Positions 1,131 to 39,710 of a DNA stretch of 44,415 bases are shown in pieces. The notes under the pieces were generated by a model. It did no database searches and was not told the DNA's origin. It saw only the letters and a list, made by a program, of their open reading frames with translations. Every line of letters starts with the position of its first letter. The first letter of the stretch is position 1. Both the position numbers and the translations under genes were made by a program. The stretch is from a virus. The stretch is taken from positions 1 through 44,415 of IMG/VR virus record IMGVR_UViG_3300021513_000006, one strand, 5' to 3'.

Positions 1131-3008
1131 ATGCAAGATAAAAATATAAAAGATTTAATTATAATCAAAAGAAATCTTGAGAAAAGTCTTTTAGTCAAGC
1201 AAGCAAGAAAATCTTTCAAAACTTTCTGTGAATATGTTTTTGGTTTGAAACCAGGAAAGATCCATCTTGAATGGCATAATTTAGCTACAAAAGCTATGAT
1301 GGAAGGAGAACCTTGTATAATCTTTGCTCCGAGGGGACATAGTAAAACCACAACAATGGCTGTTATGAGACCTATCTTTCTTTTAGGACATAATCCAAAT
1401 TTAAGAATCAAGATTGTTTCTCATTCAGACAAAAAGGCAGCAGACATTTTGAGACAAATAAAGGAAGCAATTGAATCAAATGAGAAATTAAAAGAAGTTT
1501 TCCCACATTTGGAAGCTGGGGATGTTTGGGCATCAAATAAGATTTTGATTAAAAGAAGTTTATGGAGCAAAGATGTTACAATAGAAGCTTTAGGAATTCT
1601 TTCTGGAGCTACTGGAGGTAGATGTATTGGTAAAGGGACTTTGGTTATAACTTCAGATGGAATGAAACCAATAGAAAAAATTACAGAAAAAGATAAAGTC
1701 TTAACAAAAGAAGGAAGATTCAGAAAAGTGATAAAAGTTTGGAAAAGATCTTATAAAGGAAAAGTTATCATAATGAAAACAGGAAAATACAATAGAAACA
1801 AGATTGTTTTGACTCCAGAACATAAAGTTTATGTCTTTGATAAAAAAACTTTTAGTGAAAGATGGGTTCAATGTAAAGATATTTTACAAAATAAAGAGAG
1901 ATATAAAGCAATTATGCCTGATGTGGAAACTGAAATGTTCTTTACTTTAGATATAACTAAAGTTTATGAAGAAGAATATAATGATTATGTATATGATTTA
2001 AGTGTGAGTGTTGAACATTCTTTTTGTTCTGTTTGGGCTATTCTTCATAATAGTGATTATATCGTATTTGATGATATAGTTGAATTCAATAATACAATAA
2101 AACATCCTGCTTTGATAAAGATGGTAAAAGAAGCTTTTTATAACAATTGGTTGAATTTATTAGAACCAGATGGATATGGTTGGTGTTTGATTGGAACGAT
2201 ATGGACACAAATGGATTTGCACTGGGAATTTCATCAAAAACCTATGAAATATAAAAAGATATATAGAATAAATCTTGAAACATTAGAACCAATTTGGGAA
2301 GAACATTGGTCTAAAGAAAAATTAATAGAAAGATATAATTCTATGCCTTTAAGAGCTTTTGCAAGAGCTTTTGCTAACTTACCTATCTCAAGAGAAGATG
2401 CAGTTTTCAATAGAGAAAATATAGAAGCTTGTATTGTTTTTAATGATCCAAAGTATTACAGAGAGAAATGTGATTATGTAATTATTGGAGTTGATTTGGC
2501 AATTTCTCAAAAGAAAACTGCTGCTAACACTGCTATTTTTGTAATGGGAGTAATAAAGGAAAAGAATAAATTAGTAGCACTACATGCTGAATATGGTAAA
2601 TGGACATCTCCAGAAACAGTCAATGCAATCACAAAAAATTTTGAAGATTGGAAAGCAGATATTATTGTAGTAGAAAATAATCAATATCAAGAAGCTTTAA
2701 TTCAATGGTTAAATGAGTTCAATAGAGAATTACCAGTTCAGGCTCATTTTACTACAAGTGCAAAACATGATCCAGAAATAGGATTACCTTCTATGGCACT
2801 TGAATTTGAAAGAAAGAAATGGATTATTCCAATGGGAAAGCTTCCACATGATGTTGATTGCAAGTGTGGAAAATGCAAATGGATAGAAGAATTAACAATG
2901 TATCCATTTGGAGAAACTTCAGATATTGTTATGGCATCATATTTTGCAAGAGAATATTGGAGAAAACATATAGTCTCAAAGGAAGATGTCAAAGTAGATA
3001 CTCTTTAG
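1131..3008 (+). CDS. terL: Terminase large subunit containing a mini-intein
   Basis: This is the ATP-driven DNA packaging motor and headful/end nuclease. The Walker A-like loop APRGHSKT is at residues 66-73. The Walker B strand YIVFDD (310-315) appears only after an intein of residues 165-307 is removed. The RNase H-like nuclease has Asp455 in IIGVDLA, Glu515 in IIVVENN and Asp598 in TSDIVMA. A Cys-rich loop (Cys577, 579, 582) lies near the end and may bind a metal. The spliced protein would be about 482 residues, normal for the family. The gene follows the small terminase at once and precedes the portal gene, the standard packaging order. It has no strong ribosome site, so coupling to the upstream gene is likely. 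Confidence 0.93.
   Translation: MQDKNIKDLIIIKRNLEKSLLVKQARKSFKTFCEYVFGLKPGKIHLEWHNLATKAMMEGEPCIIFAPRGHSKTTTMAVMRPIFLLGHNPNLRIKIVSHSDKKAADILRQIKEAIESNEKLKEVFPHLEAGDVWASNKILIKRSLWSKDVTIEALGILSGATGGRCIGKGTLVITSDGMKPIEKITEKDKVLTKEGRFRKVIKVWKRSYKGKVIIMKTGKYNRNKIVLTPEHKVYVFDKKTFSERWVQCKDILQNKERYKAIMPDVETEMFFTLDITKVYEEEYNDYVYDLSVSVEHSFCSVWAILHNSDYIVFDDIVEFNNTIKHPALIKMVKEAFYNNWLNLLEPDGYGWCLIGTIWTQMDLHWEFHQKPMKYKKIYRINLETLEPIWEEHWSKEKLIERYNSMPLRAFARAFANLPISREDAVFNRENIEACIVFNDPKYYREKCDYVIIGVDLAISQKKTAANTAIFVMGVIKEKNKLVALHAEYGKWTSPETVNAITKNFEDWKADIIVVENNQYQEALIQWLNEFNRELPVQAHFTTSAKHDPEIGLPSMALEFERKKWIIPMGKLPHDVDCKCGKCKWIEELTMYPFGETSDIVMASYFAREYWRKHIVSKEDVKVDTL
1623..2051 (+). other. Mini-intein in the large terminase (143 residues)
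   Basis: The insertion starts at Cys (CIGKGTLV) and ends at His-Asn, with Ser as the first residue after it. Splicing block A is the N-terminal Cys segment. Block B is LTPEHKVYVF with the conserved Thr and His. Block F is YVYDLSV. Block G is AILHN followed by S. No LAGLIDADG or HNH endonuclease region is present, so it is a splicing-only element that cannot home by itself. Removing it joins GATGGR to SDYIVFDD, restoring the usual terminase spacing just before Walker B. Confidence 0.92.
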
Positions 3009-3028
3009 ATTTTCTCTTTTCATACTTT

Positions 3029-29881: not shown

Positions 29882-30250
29882 GTGTGGAAACATTTCAAGT
29901 ATGAAGATTTTGCTTGTCCTTGCTGTGGAAGAAATAATACTCATCCTGAACTAATAAATAGGTTAGACAAAGCTCAAGAATTACTTAAGTTTCCACTTGT
30001 TATAAAATTAGGATACATTTGCAAAAGTTATGCTAAGAGATTAAATAGTTTTATTGATCTAAGATTAAAAGGACACTTAGAAGGAAGGGCTTGCAAAATT
30101 GTTTGTATTGATAACTTTTCAAGATTTTTAATAATTTCAGCTTTATTAGAAGTAGGATTTGAGCATATAGGAGTCTCAGAAAAATTTATCCATTGTGAAA
30201 TTTCTAATGAAAGAATTCCTAAATCTTTTTGGATTTTAGATAGATTTTGA
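29882..30250 (+). CDS. M15-like peptidase fold with lost active-site residues
   Basis: This 122-residue protein starts at GTG. It matches the phage M15 (D-Ala-D-Ala carboxypeptidase-like) family along its length: YEDFACPCCGRNNTHPELINRLDKAQELL, then LGYICKS where SGYRC is usual, GHLEGRACKI where SAHLEGxAxDI is usual, and a final FIHCEI. His65 and His104 remain. The zinc-ligand Asp is Lys72, and the Ser-Gly-Tyr-Arg loop has lost Ser and Arg. It is therefore probably not an active peptidase, and may be a binding domain or a decaying gene. It ends the plus-strand arm. Confidence 0.7.
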   Translation: MWKHFKYEDFACPCCGRNNTHPELINRLDKAQELLKFPLVIKLGYICKSYAKRLNSFIDLRLKGHLEGRACKIVCIDNFSRFLIISALLEVGFEHIGVSEKFIHCEISNERIPKSFWILDRF

Positions 30251-30325
30251 AAGTTTCCAAATCAATCTATAAAAATTAATCTTGCAAAATTTCTGAAGTT
30301 TTAGTATAGAGAGTAGATAAAAAGA

Positions 30326-31180
30326 TCATCCAATTTGATACTTCTTAAACAAACAAGCTAAATAATAAACTAAAGTAAGAGCTGTTCCTCCCATCTTATC
30401 TACATGAAAGTAAGGATTAACTTCACAAACATCTGCTACAGTTACTTTTTTGCTTTGAAAGACATATTTTAAAGCTTGCTTTAACACTTTCATTGAAATT
30501 CCACCAGAAGGAATTTCATGCTCTCCTATATCTGTTAAACAATCAATATCAATAGTAACATAAACAGGTTCTTTAACAAATCTAACATAATCTTTGAATT
30601 CATCTAAATCAAATTCATCTGTAAAAATTTTGACTTTTAAATCCCTTGCTTCATAAAAAGGTTCTCTTTCAAAACTCCTAATTCCCACCATAACAATATC
30701 AATACCTAATTCAGTTCTGATATAATAATTTTGTGAAGTATGTGTATATTTGACCCCTTCCCAATTCTTATGAAAATCTAAATGAGCATCAAAAGAAATA
30801 ACTGTTTTAGGTCTTAATGCTTTTGCTACTGGATAAGGTATAGAATGATCTCCTCCAATAATCAAAAATTTAGCTTTAGAATTCTTTTTCTTCAATCTAA
30901 GCAAAGCTTTTTCTATTAATTTCATATTTCTTTTACTGTCTCCATAACAAACTCTTAAATTTCCTACATCACATACTTTCAAATCACTCAAAGCACAACA
31001 ATCTAAATCAGGAAAGTAAGGTTCAATATTATACCAAGCTAATCTTGTAATATCAGGACCATATTTTGCACCAGGTCTACAAGTTGGAGTATTTTCTAAA
31101 GGAATTCCTAAAAAGATAATTTCAGCTTCTTTTAATTTACAATTCCAATCTGGAATTGTGGTTAATTTAAAGAAAGACAT
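30326..31180 (-). CDS. Arginase/agmatinase-family (ureohydrolase) enzyme
   Basis: This 284-residue full-length ureohydrolase has all six manganese ligands of the family: His112 in IIGGDHS, Asp131, His133 and Asp135 in SFDAHLDFH, and Asp211/Asp213 in VTIDIDCLTD. The C-terminal DVCEVNP and TALTLVYYLACLF are also typical. The family hydrolyses guanidino compounds such as agmatine or arginine to urea and an amine; an agmatinase role would feed putrescine synthesis. The substrate cannot be fixed, since the loop after the second Asp pair (EHEIPSGGIS) differs from the usual PEPGG. It has its own near-consensus promoter and converges with the structural arm, like a cargo (moron) gene. Confidence 0.85.
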   Translation of the reverse strand: MSFFKLTTIPDWNCKLKEAEIIFLGIPLENTPTCRPGAKYGPDITRLAWYNIEPYFPDLDCCALSDLKVCDVGNLRVCYGDSKRNMKLIEKALLRLKKKNSKAKFLIIGGDHSIPYPVAKALRPKTVISFDAHLDFHKNWEGVKYTHTSQNYYIRTELGIDIVMVGIRSFEREPFYEARDLKVKIFTDEFDLDEFKDYVRFVKEPVYVTIDIDCLTDIGEHEIPSGGISMKVLKQALKYVFQSKKVTVADVCEVNPYFHVDKMGGTALTLVYYLACLFKKYQIG

Positions 31181-31209
31181 ATTTTTGCTTCCTTTTAATT
31201 TTTCTTATT

Positions 31210-31237
31210 ATCATATCATAGAATTGAAACTTGTCAA
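31210..31237 (-). promoter_or_regulatory. Sigma70-type promoter for the agmatinase-like gene
   Basis: On the minus strand TTGACA (31232-31237), 16 bases, then TATGAT (31210-31215), preceded by TG. It shares ATGATATGATAATAAGAA with the other early promoters. An AAAAGGAAG ribosome site and the ATG at 31180 follow. Confidence 0.78.
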
Positions 31238-31239
31238 GA

Positions 31240-31380
31240 TTATTCTATTTCATTCAGTTCTTTTTTGATTTGTTCTTTTGCTAAAAATCTTTCTCTTTTA
31301 CTTGTTTTTCTTTTTATTCTTTTTCTTACTGAGCTATACTTTGCATCATATTTCCAACTTTTCCATTTATTTCTTTTCAT
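31240..31380 (-). CDS. 46-residue basic protein
   Basis: A short ORF has ATG at 31380 and GGAGAAAAAGGA directly upstream (GGAG eight bases before the start). It encodes a strongly basic peptide (KRNKWKSWKYDAKYSSVRKR, then RIKRKTSKRERFLAKEQ) that ends acidic. It could bind nucleic acid. Its start overlaps the displaced tail of the gene invaded by the homing endonuclease, so it was probably the next gene in that operon before the insertion. Confidence 0.55.
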   Translation of the reverse strand: MKRNKWKSWKYDAKYSSVRKRIKRKTSKRERFLAKEQIKKELNEIE

Positions 31381-31435
31381 TCCTTTTTCTCCTTATCCTA
31401 AAAGAAATTCCAAATATTTGACTACCATCATCTTT
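31367..31435 (-). pseudogene. Displaced original 3' end of the invaded gene
   Basis: A 22-codon open remnant, DDGSQIFGISFRIRRKRN plus KK, follows the homing endonuclease stop in another frame. It parallels the present end of the upstream 116-residue protein, GDGSQIWGFCFRRSKKSA, residue by residue with one insertion. It has no start of its own (a stop lies just before) and is best read as the orphaned native C-terminus left by insertion. Confidence 0.7.
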
Positions 31436-32132
31436 TTAGCCTATTAGCAAACCAATTGGAATGCTCATAATAACAAATAGCTTTATCAAAAATTTGTTTT
31501 TTTCGTTCTAAAAAGATTGATGCTTTATTATATAATATTTTAGCAAGTAAAAAAGCTTTCTTATTAGATGTATGTGCTTCTTTAAAATTTGGGGGATAAT
31601 TTCGATCATTTCGATAATAAATCTGAATTTTAATATCAGGAATATAACTCATTGCAAAAGTTTTAAACATTTGCAAAATCGGTTCGTATCCATATATTAT
31701 TATTTGAAATATTCCTGCTTTATATATTTTACCATTTTTCTTTCTCTTATTTAAAGAAAAACAAAAAGTTCCATCACCATCTATAAATCCTCTCCAAAAA
31801 TGAGGACTATACAATAGTATATCAGGCAAAGTAAAATTATATTTATCATATCCTTTAGCATAAAGAGAATTTATTAGCTGGACAGAATTAATTTTAACCC
31901 AACATGCTCTTTTTTGTGAAAATCTATTTTTAGGTTTTTCAAATCTTATCATATCATTTAATTCTGCAAAATTTATAAACTTTTTTAAATGTTCACTATC
32001 CTGTTCACTTAAATATAGACGAATAAAATACTTAGAAATATATCCATCAGCATAAATAAATCCTAACCAATATTGTGTCTCAGCATTTGTAAAATCTAAA
32101 AATTTTTCAATATTAAAATAATGTTTACGCAC
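31428..32132 (-). CDS. LAGLIDADG-type homing endonuclease inserted in a small gene
   Basis: The start is chosen at GTG 32132, which has GAAGGAG eight bases upstream and overlaps the preceding stop by eight bases; this gives 234 residues. An earlier in-frame ATG at 32198 lacks a usable ribosome site. Two LAGLIDADG-like helices are visible: QYWLGFIYADGYI and FWRGFIDGDGTF, each ending in the acidic metal-binding residue. The core is closely related to the second endonuclease 400 bases upstream but lacks its N-terminal helix-turn-helix. Such enzymes cut an allele lacking the insertion and copy themselves in. Duplicated gene-tail sequence at both ends marks the insertion. Confidence 0.83.
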   Translation of the reverse strand: MRKHYFNIEKFLDFTNAETQYWLGFIYADGYISKYFIRLYLSEQDSEHLKKFINFAELNDMIRFEKPKNRFSQKRACWVKINSVQLINSLYAKGYDKYNFTLPDILLYSPHFWRGFIDGDGTFCFSLNKRKKNGKIYKAGIFQIIIYGYEPILQMFKTFAMSYIPDIKIQIYYRNDRNYPPNFKEAHTSNKKAFLLAKILYNKASIFLERKKQIFDKAICYYEHSNWFANRLKR

Positions 32133-32475
32133 TTTTTTTACTCCTTCGAAAACAAAATCCCCAAATTTGGCTACCATCTCCTTTTGGTCTTGCCCCAATA
32201 TAAAATTCGAACCACTTACATCTAAATGAAAAGAAAGGTAATATCAAGTTCCATTTTCTTTTACTATGCCAAACTTTCCATTCAGAAGGATAATTTCCAG
32301 TCCCTATCCAATAATAACAAAAGTTATGCAAAGGATTTCTTATAAAATAATGATAAGGATAAGCAAGCCAACCATATTTCTTAAGATACTTTTCTGAAGG
32401 AATTGGATCATCATAGTTACCGAAAGGGTTCTTTTTTGACTTAAAAATCTTATATAACCGTTCTTTCCAATTCAT
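32125..32475 (-). CDS. Small phage protein with its 3' end replaced by homing element
   Basis: This 116-residue protein has a good AAAGGAG site. It is rich in Trp, Tyr and Phe with no recognised family: a basic N-terminus, then YGWLAYPYHYFIRNPLHNFCYYWIG, SEWKVWHSKRKW and FEFYIGARPKGDGSQIWGFCF. Repeated aromatic motifs suggest a compact globular protein. Its last 18 codons appear to be a recoded substitute carried by the downstream homing endonuclease, which starts inside the final codons; the older version of the tail lies beyond that gene. The function is unknown. Confidence 0.62.
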   Translation of the reverse strand: MNWKERLYKIFKSKKNPFGNYDDPIPSEKYLKKYGWLAYPYHYFIRNPLHNFCYYWIGTGNYPSEWKVWHSKRKWNLILPFFSFRCKWFEFYIGARPKGDGSQIWGFCFRRSKKSA

Positions 32476-32506
32476 TTTTTATTCTCCTTTCAAAATTTTT
32501 AATTTT

Positions 32507-33358
32507 TCATTCTTTTCTTTCATAATAAGCTTTTGCCAAATTAAAAATTTCCTTTTTTCTTTCTAAATAAACTTTAGCATTTTGATAAATTTTCTTTCCT
32601 ATTTCATAAGCTTTTTTACCAGAAATAATTCCTTCTAAATAAACACTTCCATTTTTACTTTGTTTTTTATTTCTTATTATCAATTCTTTACCTACCAAAG
32701 TTTTAACAAAATTATTAAATGCTAAAATTGTATAATCATCTCCACATAACCCTAAATCTAATCTATACATTTCATAAATTTTGTTCCATTTTGGTCTATA
32801 GCGTTTTTCTTTTATGAACATAAACCAACCATCTCCATCTATAACTCCTCTCCAAAAATGAGGACTAACTAATAATTCCTTTGGAATTGTTTTTTTAGAA
32901 AACCCTTTTAATTGTAATATTTCTACTAATTTTTTTGAATATAATGATAATCTACATAATTTCCATTCCTTACCAAATGAATACACTTTGTGAATTATTA
33001 TTCTACCATCATATCCAATAAATTTTTTAAATTTTTCCAAATGTTTTTTATCTTTTATACTTAATGTCAAGCTAATACCATACCAATATCCACCACTTCC
33101 TTTATTTTCTAAATGACCATCTGCATAGATAAATCCCAACCAGTATTGAGTTTCTGGAATATTAAAATCCGTTAATTTTTGAATACTTAAATTATGCTGT
33201 CTATAACTCCCTTTATTTCTTCTTTCAATCCCATTCTTTTGTAAATAACGATAAACTGTTTGATCAGAAATATTTAATGTTTTACTTATACTGCAAGCAC
33301 TTTCCCCTCTCATATACCTTTCCAAAATTTGTCTTTCTATATCAGTAGTTACTTTCAT
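32507..33358 (-). CDS. Free-standing LAGLIDADG-type homing endonuclease with HTH
   Basis: This 283-residue protein begins with a helix-turn-helix (about 8-45: ILERYMRGESACSISKTLNISDQTVYRYLQKNGIERR), as found in resolvase-like domains fused to homing enzymes. LAGLIDADG-like helices are QYWLGFIYADGHL and FWRGVIDGDGWF. It is closely similar to the endonuclease downstream over the whole core, so the two are paralogues. It lies between nrdD and the 116-residue gene with a GAGAAGG ribosome site. Its likely target is a neighbouring gene, possibly nrdD itself, which carries an intein; this is inferred. Confidence 0.83.
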   Translation of the reverse strand: MKVTTDIERQILERYMRGESACSISKTLNISDQTVYRYLQKNGIERRNKGSYRQHNLSIQKLTDFNIPETQYWLGFIYADGHLENKGSGGYWYGISLTLSIKDKKHLEKFKKFIGYDGRIIIHKVYSFGKEWKLCRLSLYSKKLVEILQLKGFSKKTIPKELLVSPHFWRGVIDGDGWFMFIKEKRYRPKWNKIYEMYRLDLGLCGDDYTILAFNNFVKTLVGKELIIRNKKQSKNGSVYLEGIISGKKAYEIGKKIYQNAKVYLERKKEIFNLAKAYYERKE

Positions 33359-33402
33359 TTTATTTTTACCTTCTCTTTTTACTATTCCATATTTTAAGAA
33401 AT

Positions 33403-36321
33403 TTATTCACTTCTCATACTCCCTTCCAAAGTATTCCAAACTCTTCTTGAAAATTCCCATTTTCGTCTCCGCTCACCCCAAGCACTAACTGGAGTAAAGA
33501 AACCTACTACTCTTGTCAAATGATCTTTTATTTTTGCTCCACAAATATAACATTCATCATATTTTCCTAATAAGTAATGTCCATTTTCACAAATTGAATA
33601 AACTGGATTCAATGCAAAATGCTCTATTCCTTTCTCTACACATAATTCAATCAAAAACTTAACTTCTTCTGGCTTCATTTCATGTAATATATTTATATGA
33701 CTTATTCCGCCCCCAGATAGATACTTAAAATATTTTCCTTCTATTTCTATCTTATCAAGTATTGAGTGTCTTTCATATAAAGGAACAAATTGATTGGAAT
33801 ATAAAACATAAGGAACTTTTTCTTCCCCATAAAAATATTTATCAAGACTTGGAAGTAATCCTGCTGCACTTTCTCCAGGAACTTGCTCTAAATTATATTT
33901 TATTTTCCCATTTTTATTAAACTCTGTAATCATATCATCCATTGTTTCTAAAATATCTATTGCAAAGCTACTTCTTAAATCTTCATCTAAAGTTCTTAGT
34001 GCTTCATATAATCCAATGAAACCGATTGTAGAATAGAAATGTTTATCCAAATCAAACCAGCCAAGATTGAAAAATCTATAACAACCTTGTTTAATAAAAT
34101 CTCTTATACACTCTCTAAAACTGTCTAAAATTTTCTTTGCAATATTCATTCTTTCTTTAAGCTTTTGCAAGTAGATGGTTTTATAGTCAATATCAAAATC
34201 ATTTCCAATTTGCTCTAACACTTCTAAAGCTATTCTATTGAGATTTATAGTAAGAACTCTTGCTGAGCCAACATTAATTCCACCATTGCCGAAACTATCA
34301 AATTTTACTGAAGAATAGTCGCTGATTACTCTGCAACACATACTATATTTCCTCGCATCATCAGAAACATAAATGTTCATTTGTCCTTTTGTATTATTTT
34401 TAGCAACCAAATCTAAAAATTCTCTATCCAATATTTTTCCAGTCTTTTTATCTTTAATAAAACAACTTGTTAAAACAGGAAATCTATAAGGAGCTTTTGT
34501 AATAGGATCACCTTTACATAAAAATTCCATTACAATTTCTTGAATTTCTAAAATTCTCTTAAGAAATAATTCCTTATCTCCTATTTCATTTGTAAAATAG
34601 GAATAAACATAAGTCAACAATTCATCTAAGATGTATCTGTCAAAGAAAGATAGATTGGAAAAAGGGCTATTTCCTGAGATAAATATTTTACCCCCCTTTC
34701 TATACACTACAATACCTGCATTAGTAGTTGGACACCAAACTTTACCTTTGTAATGAATTTTATATTTTCGGGTAGCTGATTTATTTTTTTGATTATAAAC
34801 AATTAAATATATAGTTTCTTTCTTATTGTTATTTATTCTCCTAATGGTAATTCTACTTGCCCATCCTGCTCTAACTGCTATATGTTGCAATTTATCTGCT
34901 ATAATAAAATTATCACATTGTAATCTCATTCTAAAAGTTTTTTCTTTTTTATTTTCTTCTATAGTAGTATATCCATCTAATTTAGCCCAAGTTTTTAAAA
35001 ATAATCTGCTTTGTTCCTTATTCATCTTTAAAAAAATATCAGGAATATCTCTTTTTGTATTATTTAAAATGGCTAAATATTTAGAAATTTGCCCTTTCGA
35101 TATTTGATAAATAAAAACTTCATATTTGCCATAATGCTTTTGACAACCAAAAGATTCTTTTCTTTTGTAGATACGATATTTAATACCTAACTTTTCTAAT
35201 ATCTCTTTTAATCTGTCATTACCCCAACGATTAGGAGATTTAGATATAACCAATTTATCTTTATCTATAGAGCCTTCAGTCAAAATAAAAACTAAAAATT
35301 CAATTTCTTCATTAGTTAAGTTGATACCTTCATTATTTTCTAAGTCTTCAAAGGCTACTGGAAAGTAAATAGGAGAATTAAAATCAATTATTTCTTCTGA
35401 AGGTTGCAAAATATAACCTTCCTCATTATATTTTCTGCGTAAAACTAAATGATTAGGAGTAACTTGTTGAATGTAATTCCTACCTTCATAAATATGCATA
35501 GTACCTTCATAATCATAAACATTAACTTTTAAAACTTTCTCTATAGCTAATTTACCATTTTTCCAAACATAAATACCATCTCCCACTTTTAAATCTTTCC
35601 AACTCTTAAATCCTTCTGGAGTTAAAACTTCAGTCTCTTCATCTACACATTCAGTTCCATTCCTCATTTCTTTATTAATTGTGTGGACTAAATTCTGGAA
35701 ATCATCTTCTACTTCTTTTTTGTTTATCTTATGATCTTTTCCATAGTATTTAAGATAAATATAAGTATATAAAACAATCAAGCTTGGAAATGCTATAGCT
35801 CCAGCAAATTCACTTGATAATTCAATTATTGCTTCCTTTACTTGATTAATAAAAGTTCTTGGCTTTTTAGGCGGTAGCGAATGTAATTGACCATAAGGCA
35901 TTCCTTCTAATAACAATTTACTAAAATCAACTCCAAGACAATAAGGCATTATATAAGCTGCTGTATCATGTAAATAAAAAGTTCCATCCAATAACATTTT
36001 TGAATATTCTGTAGCTTCATTTATTCCATACATTTCTACCATTTTCTCAAATAAAGTTGAAAATGTTAAATACTTTATAAATGGAGTTATCATTTCAACT
36101 TTAAATCTTGCAATACTCTTATTTGTTACATTGCTTGAAGGATTTGCAGAAATATCTTGAATATAATCAACTGTAAAATATTTCTTCTGAAATTTATTGA
36201 AATCAAAATTCTTAGGATGTATTTTCCAATATTCTAATACTTTTGGGTGTTCTTTTAAGAAATAAGAATAAACTTTTTTACCAAACAAAGTATTTGAGAA
36301 AAACAATTCAATTCCATGCAT
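33403..36321 (-). CDS. nrdD: Anaerobic (class III) ribonucleotide reductase with intein
   Basis: The start is ATG 36321, with AAGGAGG five bases upstream; an in-frame TTG nine codons earlier has none. The 972-residue precursor loses a 327-residue intein to give about 645 residues. NrdD features include YLHDTAAYIMPYCLGVD, the RNGTE/SPFSNLSFF joint, MCCRVISDYSSVKFDSFGNGGINVG, a zinc site (CENGHYL with CYICG), and the C-terminal glycyl-radical segment TRVVGFFTPVSAWG ending EFSRRVW. There is no N-terminal ATP-cone. It makes dNTPs without oxygen, so the host must grow anaerobically at infection. It is paired with nrdG immediately upstream. Confidence 0.92.
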   Translation of the reverse strand: MHGIELFFSNTLFGKKVYSYFLKEHPKVLEYWKIHPKNFDFNKFQKKYFTVDYIQDISANPSSNVTNKSIARFKVEMITPFIKYLTFSTLFEKMVEMYGINEATEYSKMLLDGTFYLHDTAAYIMPYCLGVDFSKLLLEGMPYGQLHSLPPKKPRTFINQVKEAIIELSSEFAGAIAFPSLIVLYTYIYLKYYGKDHKINKKEVEDDFQNLVHTINKEMRNGTECVDEETEVLTPEGFKSWKDLKVGDGIYVWKNGKLAIEKVLKVNVYDYEGTMHIYEGRNYIQQVTPNHLVLRRKYNEEGYILQPSEEIIDFNSPIYFPVAFEDLENNEGINLTNEEIEFLVFILTEGSIDKDKLVISKSPNRWGNDRLKEILEKLGIKYRIYKRKESFGCQKHYGKYEVFIYQISKGQISKYLAILNNTKRDIPDIFLKMNKEQSRLFLKTWAKLDGYTTIEENKKEKTFRMRLQCDNFIIADKLQHIAVRAGWASRITIRRINNNKKETIYLIVYNQKNKSATRKYKIHYKGKVWCPTTNAGIVVYRKGGKIFISGNSPFSNLSFFDRYILDELLTYVYSYFTNEIGDKELFLKRILEIQEIVMEFLCKGDPITKAPYRFPVLTSCFIKDKKTGKILDREFLDLVAKNNTKGQMNIYVSDDARKYSMCCRVISDYSSVKFDSFGNGGINVGSARVLTINLNRIALEVLEQIGNDFDIDYKTIYLQKLKERMNIAKKILDSFRECIRDFIKQGCYRFFNLGWFDLDKHFYSTIGFIGLYEALRTLDEDLRSSFAIDILETMDDMITEFNKNGKIKYNLEQVPGESAAGLLPSLDKYFYGEEKVPYVLYSNQFVPLYERHSILDKIEIEGKYFKYLSGGGISHINILHEMKPEEVKFLIELCVEKGIEHFALNPVYSICENGHYLLGKYDECYICGAKIKDHLTRVVGFFTPVSAWGERRRKWEFSRRVWNTLEGSMRSE
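34669..35649 (-). other. Intein in nrdD (327 residues, degenerate DOD endonuclease)
   Basis: It begins CVDEETEVLTPEGFK and ends KIFISGN before Ser. Block B is IQQVTPNHLVLRR; block F is VWCPTTNAGIVVYR. The penultimate residue is Gly, not His. The middle has the size and helices of a dodecapeptide endonuclease (IEFLVFILTEGSID and FLKTWAKLDGYTT), but both are weak matches to LAGLIDADG, so DNA cleavage may be lost. It interrupts the conserved NrdD motif RNGTE/SPFSNL. Confidence 0.9.
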
Positions 36322-36352
36322 AACAGCCTCCTTTCTGCAAAATTTCAAAGCT

Positions 36353-37055: not shown

Positions 37056-39710
37056 TTATTCCTTCTTCCACATTTTGTCAATAGTAAAATCAACTGGAAT
37101 TACTATCTGACAATTAGCAAAAGGAATAGGAAATTCCATTGCCCACCTGACTATTTCACATATTTCATCTACTTTCTCTTTTTTTGCTTCTAATAACAGT
37201 TCATCATGTCTTGTTAAAAGAAATTTACAAAAAGGTTTTAATTCTTTTTCTATAAGTTTCCTTTTTAATCTGATAAGGCTTACCATTAGTGCATCTGCTA
37301 CTGTTGATTGAGGATAAAAATTAACTATTTCCCTAATTTTATGAGAATATTCAGGATTTAATTTTCTTTTTCCTGTAAATTTATCTTCATAAAATTTCCT
37401 TACTTTTTGGACTCTTCTCATTCTTCCAAAAACATTTATGAATTTAGCTTCTTTCCCTTCTTCTACTTTATCATATTGAGATATTAAGACATTGATGAAA
37501 TATCTTACTTCTGGCTTATCCTGAAACCATCTATCTATAAAGTCTTGAGCTTCTTTTACTGAAATATTCAATCTTTGGGCTAATCCATAAGCTGAAGTCA
37601 AGTATGCAATAGAGAAATTTATCGATTTTGCTATTGATCTTTCTTCTGTAGTTATATCTTCAAAATCCTTATTGAATATTAGTGATGCTGTTAAAGTATG
37701 AAAATCAATTCCACTATTAAATGCTTCTATCATACTTTTGCAATTACTATAACCAGCAAGCATTCTTAAGTCTGCCATAGAATAATCTGCACTTACTATT
37801 AACCAACCTTCTTCTGCTTGAACCATATTTCTATATAAGTTATCTCTTGGAATTCCATGAAAAGCTGGATTAGATGTTGATAACCTTCCTGTTTCAGTTC
37901 CAGCAATATTAATATTGCAAGATAGTCTGACAATATTTTCAGTTTCTGTTTGTTTTAATCTATAGTTATAATTTTCAAGAAATAAAACATAAGTTGTATA
38001 ATTTTTTAACAATTTTCTATATTCAAGCAACTTTTGAGCTATTTCTATCCCATTCTCTGCTAATATTTTTAGAGCTTCTTCATCATAAGAAGGATTTCCT
38101 TTAGGAGTTTTCTTTGGAGAATCTATTCCTAATTCTTTAAATAACTTAGAAATCTGCTGAGGAGAGTTCCAATTTACCATTTTTCCAGCTAATTTACTTA
38201 ATTCATTCTGCTTCTCTTTCATTTTATATTGAACTTCTTCTTTTAAGTTCTCTACATAGCTTCTTGAAAAAGGTAACCCATTCTTTTCCATTTCAAAAAG
38301 AATTCTATAATGTTCCATTTCTAATTCTTTAAGCTTTTCTACCTGAAAGTAAGTATAGTAAGGAGTTATGTAATGTTTATTTAGCTTTTTGTGTTCTTCT
38401 ATTAATTTATTGACCTTATTGGATAAACTTTTTTGCCACAAATCTAATTGCTTTATTCTTCTATCTAATTCTTTCCAAAGATAATAATTGGAGCAACAAT
38501 CATAAGCACAATACTGATACAATTCATTAAAATCAACATAAACATACCACTTTTCTTTTTTTGACATAAAAATCTCTTTCATTTCCTTATAATAATTTGA
38601 AAAAGGTGTATAAAGAGTAATTAATGTTTTCAAATCATGTGGTGGAGTTTCCTTTAATAAATGATGATAAACTAATGTATCAGCATAAACTTTATCCATT
38701 ACATCTATTCCTAAATCTCTTAGCAGAACCAATGCATCAAACTTGAAATTGTGTCCTATTATCTTTAATTTCTCGTAAGAAAATAGTCTTCTTAATTCTT
38801 CCATTACTTTTTCCTGAATTCCTTCTATAAAGAAATTAATAATCTGCCTTTTTAATGCTTCATAATGTCTTAAAGGAATAATAAATGCTTTCTTTTCTGA
38901 TAGAGCTATTCCAATGCAGAATATTTTGTTATTAGGATCATGAACATCTTTACTGAAAGTTTCCAAATCTACTACTGCATAAACTTCTTCTTTACTATTT
39001 ACTACACTATCAACAAAATTTTTCACTTTCTCATAAGTATCTAAAATTTCATACTCTATTGTTACATCTCCTTCTTTCAGAAAAGTGCTTAAATCTTTCT
39101 TAAATTCTGGCTCATAATTTGGATTTCTTAAAATGTAAGAAGGATGGTATGTCATGCATACTTTCACTTTTTTCTTCTCTCCTAAAATAGGACTTTCAAT
39201 TTCTATAATTTTTCCTCTTTCAAATTCTTCTTTTATCTTTCCCAATAATGCATACTGAACTCCTAAAAATGCAATTCTTCCCAAACAGATTATCATATTT
39301 GGCTTAATTAAGTTTATTTCTCTCCTTAAAATAGAAATAGAACATATCTTTATCATACTTTGAGTTATCTCATCTGTTTCTCCATAACACTTGACTGCAT
39401 TTGTTATATAAAAATCTTCTCTTTTATACCCTAAATCTTTCAAAACTTCTTCTAATTTCTTTCCTGAAGGACCTATAAAAGGTCTGTCTGCTTCATCTTC
39501 CTGAATGCCTGGATTTTGGGCTGTAATCATTATGCTTTTATCTTTATTTCCTTCACTTCTTACACATGGAGTTTTTGCTTTTGAATATAATTTCATACAA
39601 GGTAAATTTTCAAAATCTCCATTTCCATACTTTTCTATTATCTTATAGCAAAAGTTATCAAAAGGATTTAATACTGGACACCATTCCTTTACATTTATAT
39701 AATCTGCCAT
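37056..39710 (-). CDS. Uracil-DNA glycosylase-like domain fused to DNA polymerase I
   Basis: The 884-residue protein has three parts. Residues about 30-212 are a family-4-like UDG domain: ITAQNPGIQEDEADRPFIGPSG, FYITNAVKCYG and MTYHPSYILRNP, with Cys38, 49, 108 and 123 as possible Fe-S ligands. Residues about 240-410 are a 3'-5' exonuclease (Asp248 and Glu250 in VVDLET, Asp325 in HNFKFD, Asp404 in YCAYDCC). Residues about 460-884 are a family A polymerase: motif A SADYSMADLRML (Asp642), motif B with Lys695 and Phe699, motif C RHDELLLEA (Asp836, Glu837). SPO1-like polymerases also carry an N-terminal UDG domain. AAGGAG supports the start. This is the phage replicase. Confidence 0.92.
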   Translation of the reverse strand: MADYINVKEWCPVLNPFDNFCYKIIEKYGNGDFENLPCMKLYSKAKTPCVRSEGNKDKSIMITAQNPGIQEDEADRPFIGPSGKKLEEVLKDLGYKREDFYITNAVKCYGETDEITQSMIKICSISILRREINLIKPNMIICLGRIAFLGVQYALLGKIKEEFERGKIIEIESPILGEKKKVKVCMTYHPSYILRNPNYEPEFKKDLSTFLKEGDVTIEYEILDTYEKVKNFVDSVVNSKEEVYAVVDLETFSKDVHDPNNKIFCIGIALSEKKAFIIPLRHYEALKRQIINFFIEGIQEKVMEELRRLFSYEKLKIIGHNFKFDALVLLRDLGIDVMDKVYADTLVYHHLLKETPPHDLKTLITLYTPFSNYYKEMKEIFMSKKEKWYVYVDFNELYQYCAYDCCSNYYLWKELDRRIKQLDLWQKSLSNKVNKLIEEHKKLNKHYITPYYTYFQVEKLKELEMEHYRILFEMEKNGLPFSRSYVENLKEEVQYKMKEKQNELSKLAGKMVNWNSPQQISKLFKELGIDSPKKTPKGNPSYDEEALKILAENGIEIAQKLLEYRKLLKNYTTYVLFLENYNYRLKQTETENIVRLSCNINIAGTETGRLSTSNPAFHGIPRDNLYRNMVQAEEGWLIVSADYSMADLRMLAGYSNCKSMIEAFNSGIDFHTLTASLIFNKDFEDITTEERSIAKSINFSIAYLTSAYGLAQRLNISVKEAQDFIDRWFQDKPEVRYFINVLISQYDKVEEGKEAKFINVFGRMRRVQKVRKFYEDKFTGKRKLNPEYSHKIREIVNFYPQSTVADALMVSLIRLKRKLIEKELKPFCKFLLTRHDELLLEAKKEKVDEICEIVRWAMEFPIPFANCQIVIPVDFTIDKMWKKE

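Follow-up and report, generated by a model that had tools for sequence, protein, structure and literature searches.

Two related, free-standing LAGLIDADG endonuclease genes very probably lie within a single phage gene, here called X, where each has displaced one native end of the gene and left a working copy that carries diverged replacements. Direct support for this reading comes from the anatomy of the locus, from the homology of both displaced scraps to X, from the lack of these endonuclease genes at other loci with X, and from the intact predicted fold of one of the two enzymes, HEG1. Throughout, "the window" means the whole 44,415-nt stretch of viral DNA that was analysed, and coordinates count along it unless another contig is named.

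Organization of the locus

All of the genes concerned lie on the minus strand, in the order nrdD, native head of X, HEG2, a complete copy of X (designated X'), HEG1, native tail of X, and a gene of 46 codons (Table 1), with an arginase-family gene next in reading order. The upstream neighbour of the block is nrdD, whose stop codon overlaps the GTG of the displaced head. The HEG2-X'-HEG1 block itself forms a compact operon and has ribosome-binding sites of its own, and the GTG of HEG1 (at 32132) overlaps the end of X' (at 32125) by 8 bases, just as a preliminary description of this DNA had stated.

Table 1. Coordinates of the features discussed (window positions, except for the last line)
Feature	Position	Strand	Remarks
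nrdD (anaerobic ribonucleotide reductase), with intein	33403..36348	-	Pfam NRDD, E 2e-79
Displaced native head of X	33378..33410	-	GTG start, MNKFLKIWNSK, then KRR and stop
HEG2, 283 aa	32507..33358	-	N-terminal helix-turn-helix and two LAGLIDADG motifs
Gene X' (116 aa), complete, own ribosome-binding site, diverged head and tail	32125..32475	-	
Replacement tail of X' (copy 1 of the 54-nt repeat)	32132..32185	-	40/54 identical to the displaced tail
HEG1, 234 aa from GTG	31428..32132	-	predicted monomeric LAGLIDADG homing endonuclease
Displaced native tail of X, KDDGSQIFGISFRIRRKRNEKK	31370..31435	-	stop TAA 31369-31367
46-aa gene	31240..31380	-	ATG inside the displaced tail of X
Helicase-head case in contig L033	head copy 742-862; endonuclease gene 870-1652; gene 1649-2731		

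Two other proteins of the window deserve mention in their own right. A 625-aa protein (1131-3008) contains a Hint/intein splicing domain near residues 165-307, and the rest of it looks like a terminase large subunit. The region 37056-39710 encodes a single phage protein that combines a uracil-DNA glycosylase domain, a 3'-5' exonuclease and a family A DNA polymerase.

Probable native ends of X outside the endonuclease genes

The C-terminal sequence of X' is GDGSQIWGFCFRRSKKSA. The preliminary description had claimed that a second, displaced end of the gene lies past the HEG1 stop, and had pointed to a DNA match between GATGGTAGCCAAAT and GATGGTAGTCAAAT. This match is present and forms part of a longer, ungapped repeat of 54 nt in which 40 positions (74%) are identical (32185-32132 versus 31436-31383). 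The last codons of HEG1, including its TGA at 31430-31428, fall inside the displaced tail, whose reading frame (31435-31370) has a TAA directly upstream and lacks a start codon. The displaced end itself was borne out by two analyses. None of 2000 dinucleotide shuffles reached the score of the repeat (observed 23.2, shuffle maximum 15.4), and the displaced tail ranked second of 2064 six-frame window peptides, after X' itself, in a search with a profile built from endonuclease-free homologues of other phages, the window being left out (E 0.005; next peptide 0.44). The alignment covers positions 94-110 of the 111 in the profile, that is, its C-terminal end.

The check proposed in the preliminary description, an alignment of X homologues from loci that lack the endonucleases, was also carried out. 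These homologues share the closing motif DGSQIFGIAFR..., and in 6 of the 7 compared the tail DNA is nearer to the displaced than to the in-gene copy. The exception is a close relative of the window, the sister phage described below, which is about equally distant from the two (33/48 nt to the displaced and 35/48 to the in-gene copy); the family tails closest to the displaced one are those of L007 (38/48 nt) and L006 (36/48 nt). The homologue tails thus support the original proposal that an endonuclease gene entered the tail of X together with a diverged substitute and displaced the native tail. Judged by these alignments, the displaced tail is the genuine, family-typical end of X and the in-gene tail is a diverged substitute. 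The proposal had also offered an insertion site and a likely recognition sequence; the insertion point could be located to about one codon, while the recognition sequence was not established.

The earlier reading was incomplete in that it missed a displaced head of X beyond the second endonuclease gene. The word KFLKIWNSK from this head scores 38.0, higher than any other of the window's 49,577 nine-residue words (the runner-up has 21.0), and among 702,340 words from other loci the best non-X word reaches 25.3, with only a true X head coming close. Heads such as KFLKIFNSK, DLLKIWNSK and RLLKIWNSK are found in the homologues, and the head in place in X' is MNWKERLYKIFKSK. At the DNA level the heads of 12 of 13 homologues are nearer to the displaced head than to the one in place, and the displaced head is the third-best match in the six-frame window when the family profile is built without the window. 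By itself in the full profile search the displaced head gives a weak match (E 0.71), so that its support comes from its position and from the word test.

Since the head scrap extends to codon 11 and the tail scrap from codon 98 onwards, head, body and tail together make up one complete native gene. When the native head, the body and the native tail are rejoined, the product scores 193.0 bits against the family profile, compared to 187.4 for X', and both scraps resemble the X family more than the in-place ends do. Old and new ends share no exact match longer than 7-8 nt, and this speaks against a fault in the assembly. It is hardly credible that the scraps are chance resemblances in AT-rich DNA and the endonuclease genes merely intergenic: even though the head scrap is only 33 nt long and scores poorly in the full profile search, each scrap ranks first or second among the non-trivial matches in the window, and the two sit at the exact edges of the block in the right order and on the right strand. 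With a scrap of X outside each of them, the two endonuclease genes are, by homology and position, placed inside the X coding region.

The two endonucleases

HEG1 and HEG2 are 37% identical to each other and have stretches of as many as 22 identical nt in common. Both match the phrog_4645 endonucleases (HEG2, E 6e-28; HEG1, E 1e-21), and HEG2 also matches helix-turn-helix families and, weakly, LAGLIDADG_1/3. The two motifs of HEG1 are intact, namely GFIYADG (with D29 invariant) and GFIDGDG (with D118 invariant and D120 nearly so) among 16 aligned relatives. The AlphaFold model of HEG1 from its GTG has a pLDDT of 92.7 and a pTM of 0.89, and its top Foldseek matches are the LAGLIDADG enzymes I-Tsp061I, I-SmaMI and I-AniI. 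By its motifs and predicted fold HEG1 is therefore a LAGLIDADG homing endonuclease, with putative cleavage and homing activities. A single-sequence scan of viral contigs found no relatives of HEG1; relatives were retrieved only with an alignment of HEG1 and HEG2. In most of 77 relatives about 69 residues, including a helix-turn-helix, precede the core. HEG1 has only 17, and its 5' end therefore appears to have been cut back to the tail of X'.

A group I intron or an intein was rejected as an account of the insertion. The region 30200-33600 contains no match to an Rfam intron, even at E values up to 1, and stop codons and separate starts are found at both ends of HEG1.

The similarity between the two endonuclease genes might also suggest a tandem array, that is, a row of X copies with endonuclease genes between them, from which deletions left a head, a whole copy and a tail. 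Endonuclease-driven local amplification involving SegB has been reported for phage T6 (PMC13096335), and the shared stretches of identical DNA would fit such an origin. Nonetheless, an array is improbable, since the endonuclease genes occupy different positions in X (codons 11 and 98) and their 37% identity means that they are not repeats of one unit, while the old and new ends of X, at no more than 74% identity, are too diverged for a recent duplication.

The X gene and its family

Homologues of X were found in 26 IMG/VR loci, and in most of those read in detail the gene lies beside lysis or tail genes. Within about 4 kb, no relative of either endonuclease occurs in any of the 26 loci. Four of nine members of the X family match DUF7338 (PF24027) weakly, with a best E of 4e-4; the window copy gives no match. 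No match to X was found in GenBank phages. Genomes from the class (41) and the phylum (395) to which the host bin of the sister phage belongs were searched as well; apart from that bin itself, they gave a single weak match, in a member of the class (E 2.9e-6). Searches by way of nrdD, the 46-aa gene and X revealed no further phage that has X at the nrdD locus.

The predicted structure of X is of low confidence (pLDDT 55.7) and places codon 98 between the last two predicted strands. Removal of the tail costs X 20 bits in the family profile. A truncated X would probably fail, because in this low-confidence model the tail encodes the last predicted strand, and the replacement end would thereby keep the gene alive.

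The body of X' bears on how the block arose. A central stretch of 28 codons (codons 46-74) is 94% identical to the X of the sister phage (79/84 nt), and outside this centre the identity is only about 62-75%. A mosaic test comparing a native centre with foreign ends of X' was not significant (permutation 91/500). One alternative is that HEG2-X'-HEG1 arrived in one step, as a single block from another phage that replaced the middle of a resident X, which would make X' wholly foreign and the scraps the sole remains of the resident gene. This is a variant of end displacement rather than a departure from it, so that the confidence given to the two overlaps, and taken alone it is somewhat doubtful though far from negligible. 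The compact operon structure of the block and the low identity outside the centre of X' would both fit, as would the weak grouping (0.749) of X' with the X genes of L114 and L118 rather than with that of the sister. Such a replacement would, however, require the loss of exactly the codons between the two scraps, and the close match of the central stretch to the sister is what would be expected of native DNA.

The sister phage

The nearest relative of the window, here called the sister phage, is IMGVR 3300014886_000004, which is also present in a Thermodesulfobacteriota bin from the Guaymas Basin (QNAZ01000001.1). Across most of the right-hand two thirds of the window the identity of its DNA is mostly 87-94%, and around the block it is 88-93%; within nrdD the identity is 93% down to position 33422. 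In the sister, nrdD runs straight into the 46-aa gene and the whole 2-kb block is absent; its X lies elsewhere, adjoining lysis genes, rather than at the nrdD locus. The 46-aa frame of the sister (L001:7883-8020, minus strand) encodes a protein that is 91% conserved and yet lacks a start codon, which suggests a recent deletion between nrdD and the 46-aa gene. The comparison therefore suggests, with the direction of change inferred from the two sequences, a deletion of X at the nrdD locus of the sister and not a gain of the gene by the window at a previously unoccupied site.

The two phages differ in other respects near this locus. Both have inteins in nrdD, at two different positions (34669-35656 in the window and L004 9876-10900 in the sister), and each lacks the intein of the other. 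The arginase-family gene of the window (30312-31240) has its own promoter-like start (31200-31241) and is absent from this place in the sister, where the promoter-like stretch is found elsewhere with 93% identity.

Related arrangements around other endonucleases

A survey for flank-to-flank repeats among 57 non-redundant endonuclease relatives gave HEG1 as the strongest case and a clear outlier (empirical p 0.0007). A weak second was L053, in which a 36-nt imperfect direct repeat (2169-2204 and 2979-3014) surrounds the endonuclease gene (empirical p 0.003); this repeat may be a further end or target duplication.

A different case was found on inspection, outside the ranking of the survey, in which its cluster representative scored low. 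In L033, L034, L037 and L039 a relative of HEG1 and HEG2 directly precedes a helicase-like gene, the head of which recurs in degenerate form upstream of the endonuclease gene; L019 and L020 have the same arrangement in a different context. The degenerate head reads ATGACAATAAGAGATAAAAG..., as does the head in the endonuclease-free L177, with 23 of the first 24 nt matching. It is nearer to endonuclease-free homologues than is the working head in only 1 of 51 comparisons, as expected of a decayed scrap, and since it is not closer overall the argument for displacement rests on the first codons. Read in this way, the helicase-like gene is a case of head displacement independent of the window, in which the working gene carries a new head.

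A model for the displacement of gene ends

Under the preferred reading of end displacement, a native X would once have lain between nrdD and the 46-aa gene. HEG2 would have broken X after about codon 11, with the native head remaining behind nrdD and X' beginning with another head. HEG1 would have broken X around codon 98, in the loop that leads into the last predicted strand, with the native tail remaining before the 46-aa gene and X' ending, after this entry, with another tail. The mechanism pictured for each event is that the endonuclease cut an endonuclease-free allele of X, and that a donor carrying the endonuclease gene fused to a diverged end of X then served to repair the break. One repair junction would have passed through homologous X sequence, and the other would have joined to the old end. 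The diverged end would keep X intact, and, being different from the native site, it may also protect the occupied allele against a further cut. The order of these events is one that we infer, and the body of X' may be native, which would imply two end swaps, or may have been brought in with the endonucleases as one cassette.

Whether the same account extends beyond this locus is close to an even proposition, and the extension is offered tentatively: phage LAGLIDADG endonucleases related to phrog_4645 might form an end-swapping class, which colonises the heads and tails of coding genes by supplying a diverged replacement end, and in which a gene flanked by two endonucleases can become a mobile cassette that protects itself.

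The free-standing endonuclease genes of phages are usually thought to be tolerated through landing between genes. The two in the window appear to sit inside a coding gene that survives through replaced ends on both sides, and they illustrate how such elements can target conserved, needed coding sequence by bringing replacement ends with them. End swapping of this kind would offer a way in which mosaic phage genes arise and in which horizontal transfer comes to be called wrongly. Mapped insertion points are now provided for cutting tests, and a pattern of fungal mitochondria is linked to the much larger world of viruses, where it is open to survey.

Relation to known systems

The closest parallel comes from fungal mitochondria. 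In the atp6, atp9, cox2 and nad3 genes of Glomus, an endonuclease ORF has brought a foreign C-terminus, the native C-terminus lies downstream, and the hybrid gene is expressed (Beaudet and others, PMC3630166); the atp6 gene of Allomyces macrogynus is cited there as the first case of such a mobile ORF (mORF). The window resembles these mORFs in that an endonuclease gene lies in the 3' part of a gene, with an in-frame diverged C-terminus before it and the native one downstream, and the identity between old and new C-termini (74%) is within the range of the fungal cases (64-81%). It differs in being from a phage, in that the head of the gene appears to have been displaced as well, by a second endonuclease, and in being known from sequence alone. 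Furthermore, the decisive test in the fungal work was a comparison with a close relative, whose gene end was nearly identical to the displaced one (PMC3630166), whereas the displaced tail in the window is family-typical, with a closest match of 38/48 nt, and the close relative lacks X at this locus.

The free-standing seg and mob endonucleases of T4-like phages are of the GIY-YIG or HNH types, and in the accessible sections of a review (PMC2988022) they are described as intergenic or as splitting genes into cooperating pieces, as in nrdA of Aeh1 and gene 60 of T4. They are like HEG1 and HEG2 in being free-standing phage genes beside a reductase and other conserved genes, and on the T4 side those sections describe co-conversion of flanking DNA by break repair; replacement of gene ends is absent from their account. 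The LAGLIDADG enzymes of fungal mitochondria of the I-OnuI and I-SmaMI type have the same fold as that predicted for HEG1 (Foldseek E about 1e-8 to 1e-7) at 10-15% sequence identity; most of the phage relatives differ from them in an extra N-terminal helix-turn-helix, which HEG1 lacks. A search of the open-access literature found no phage precedent for the replacement of gene ends by endonucleases. The anatomy is thus one known from fungal mitochondria, and what is new here is its phage setting and the apparent swap at both ends of one gene.
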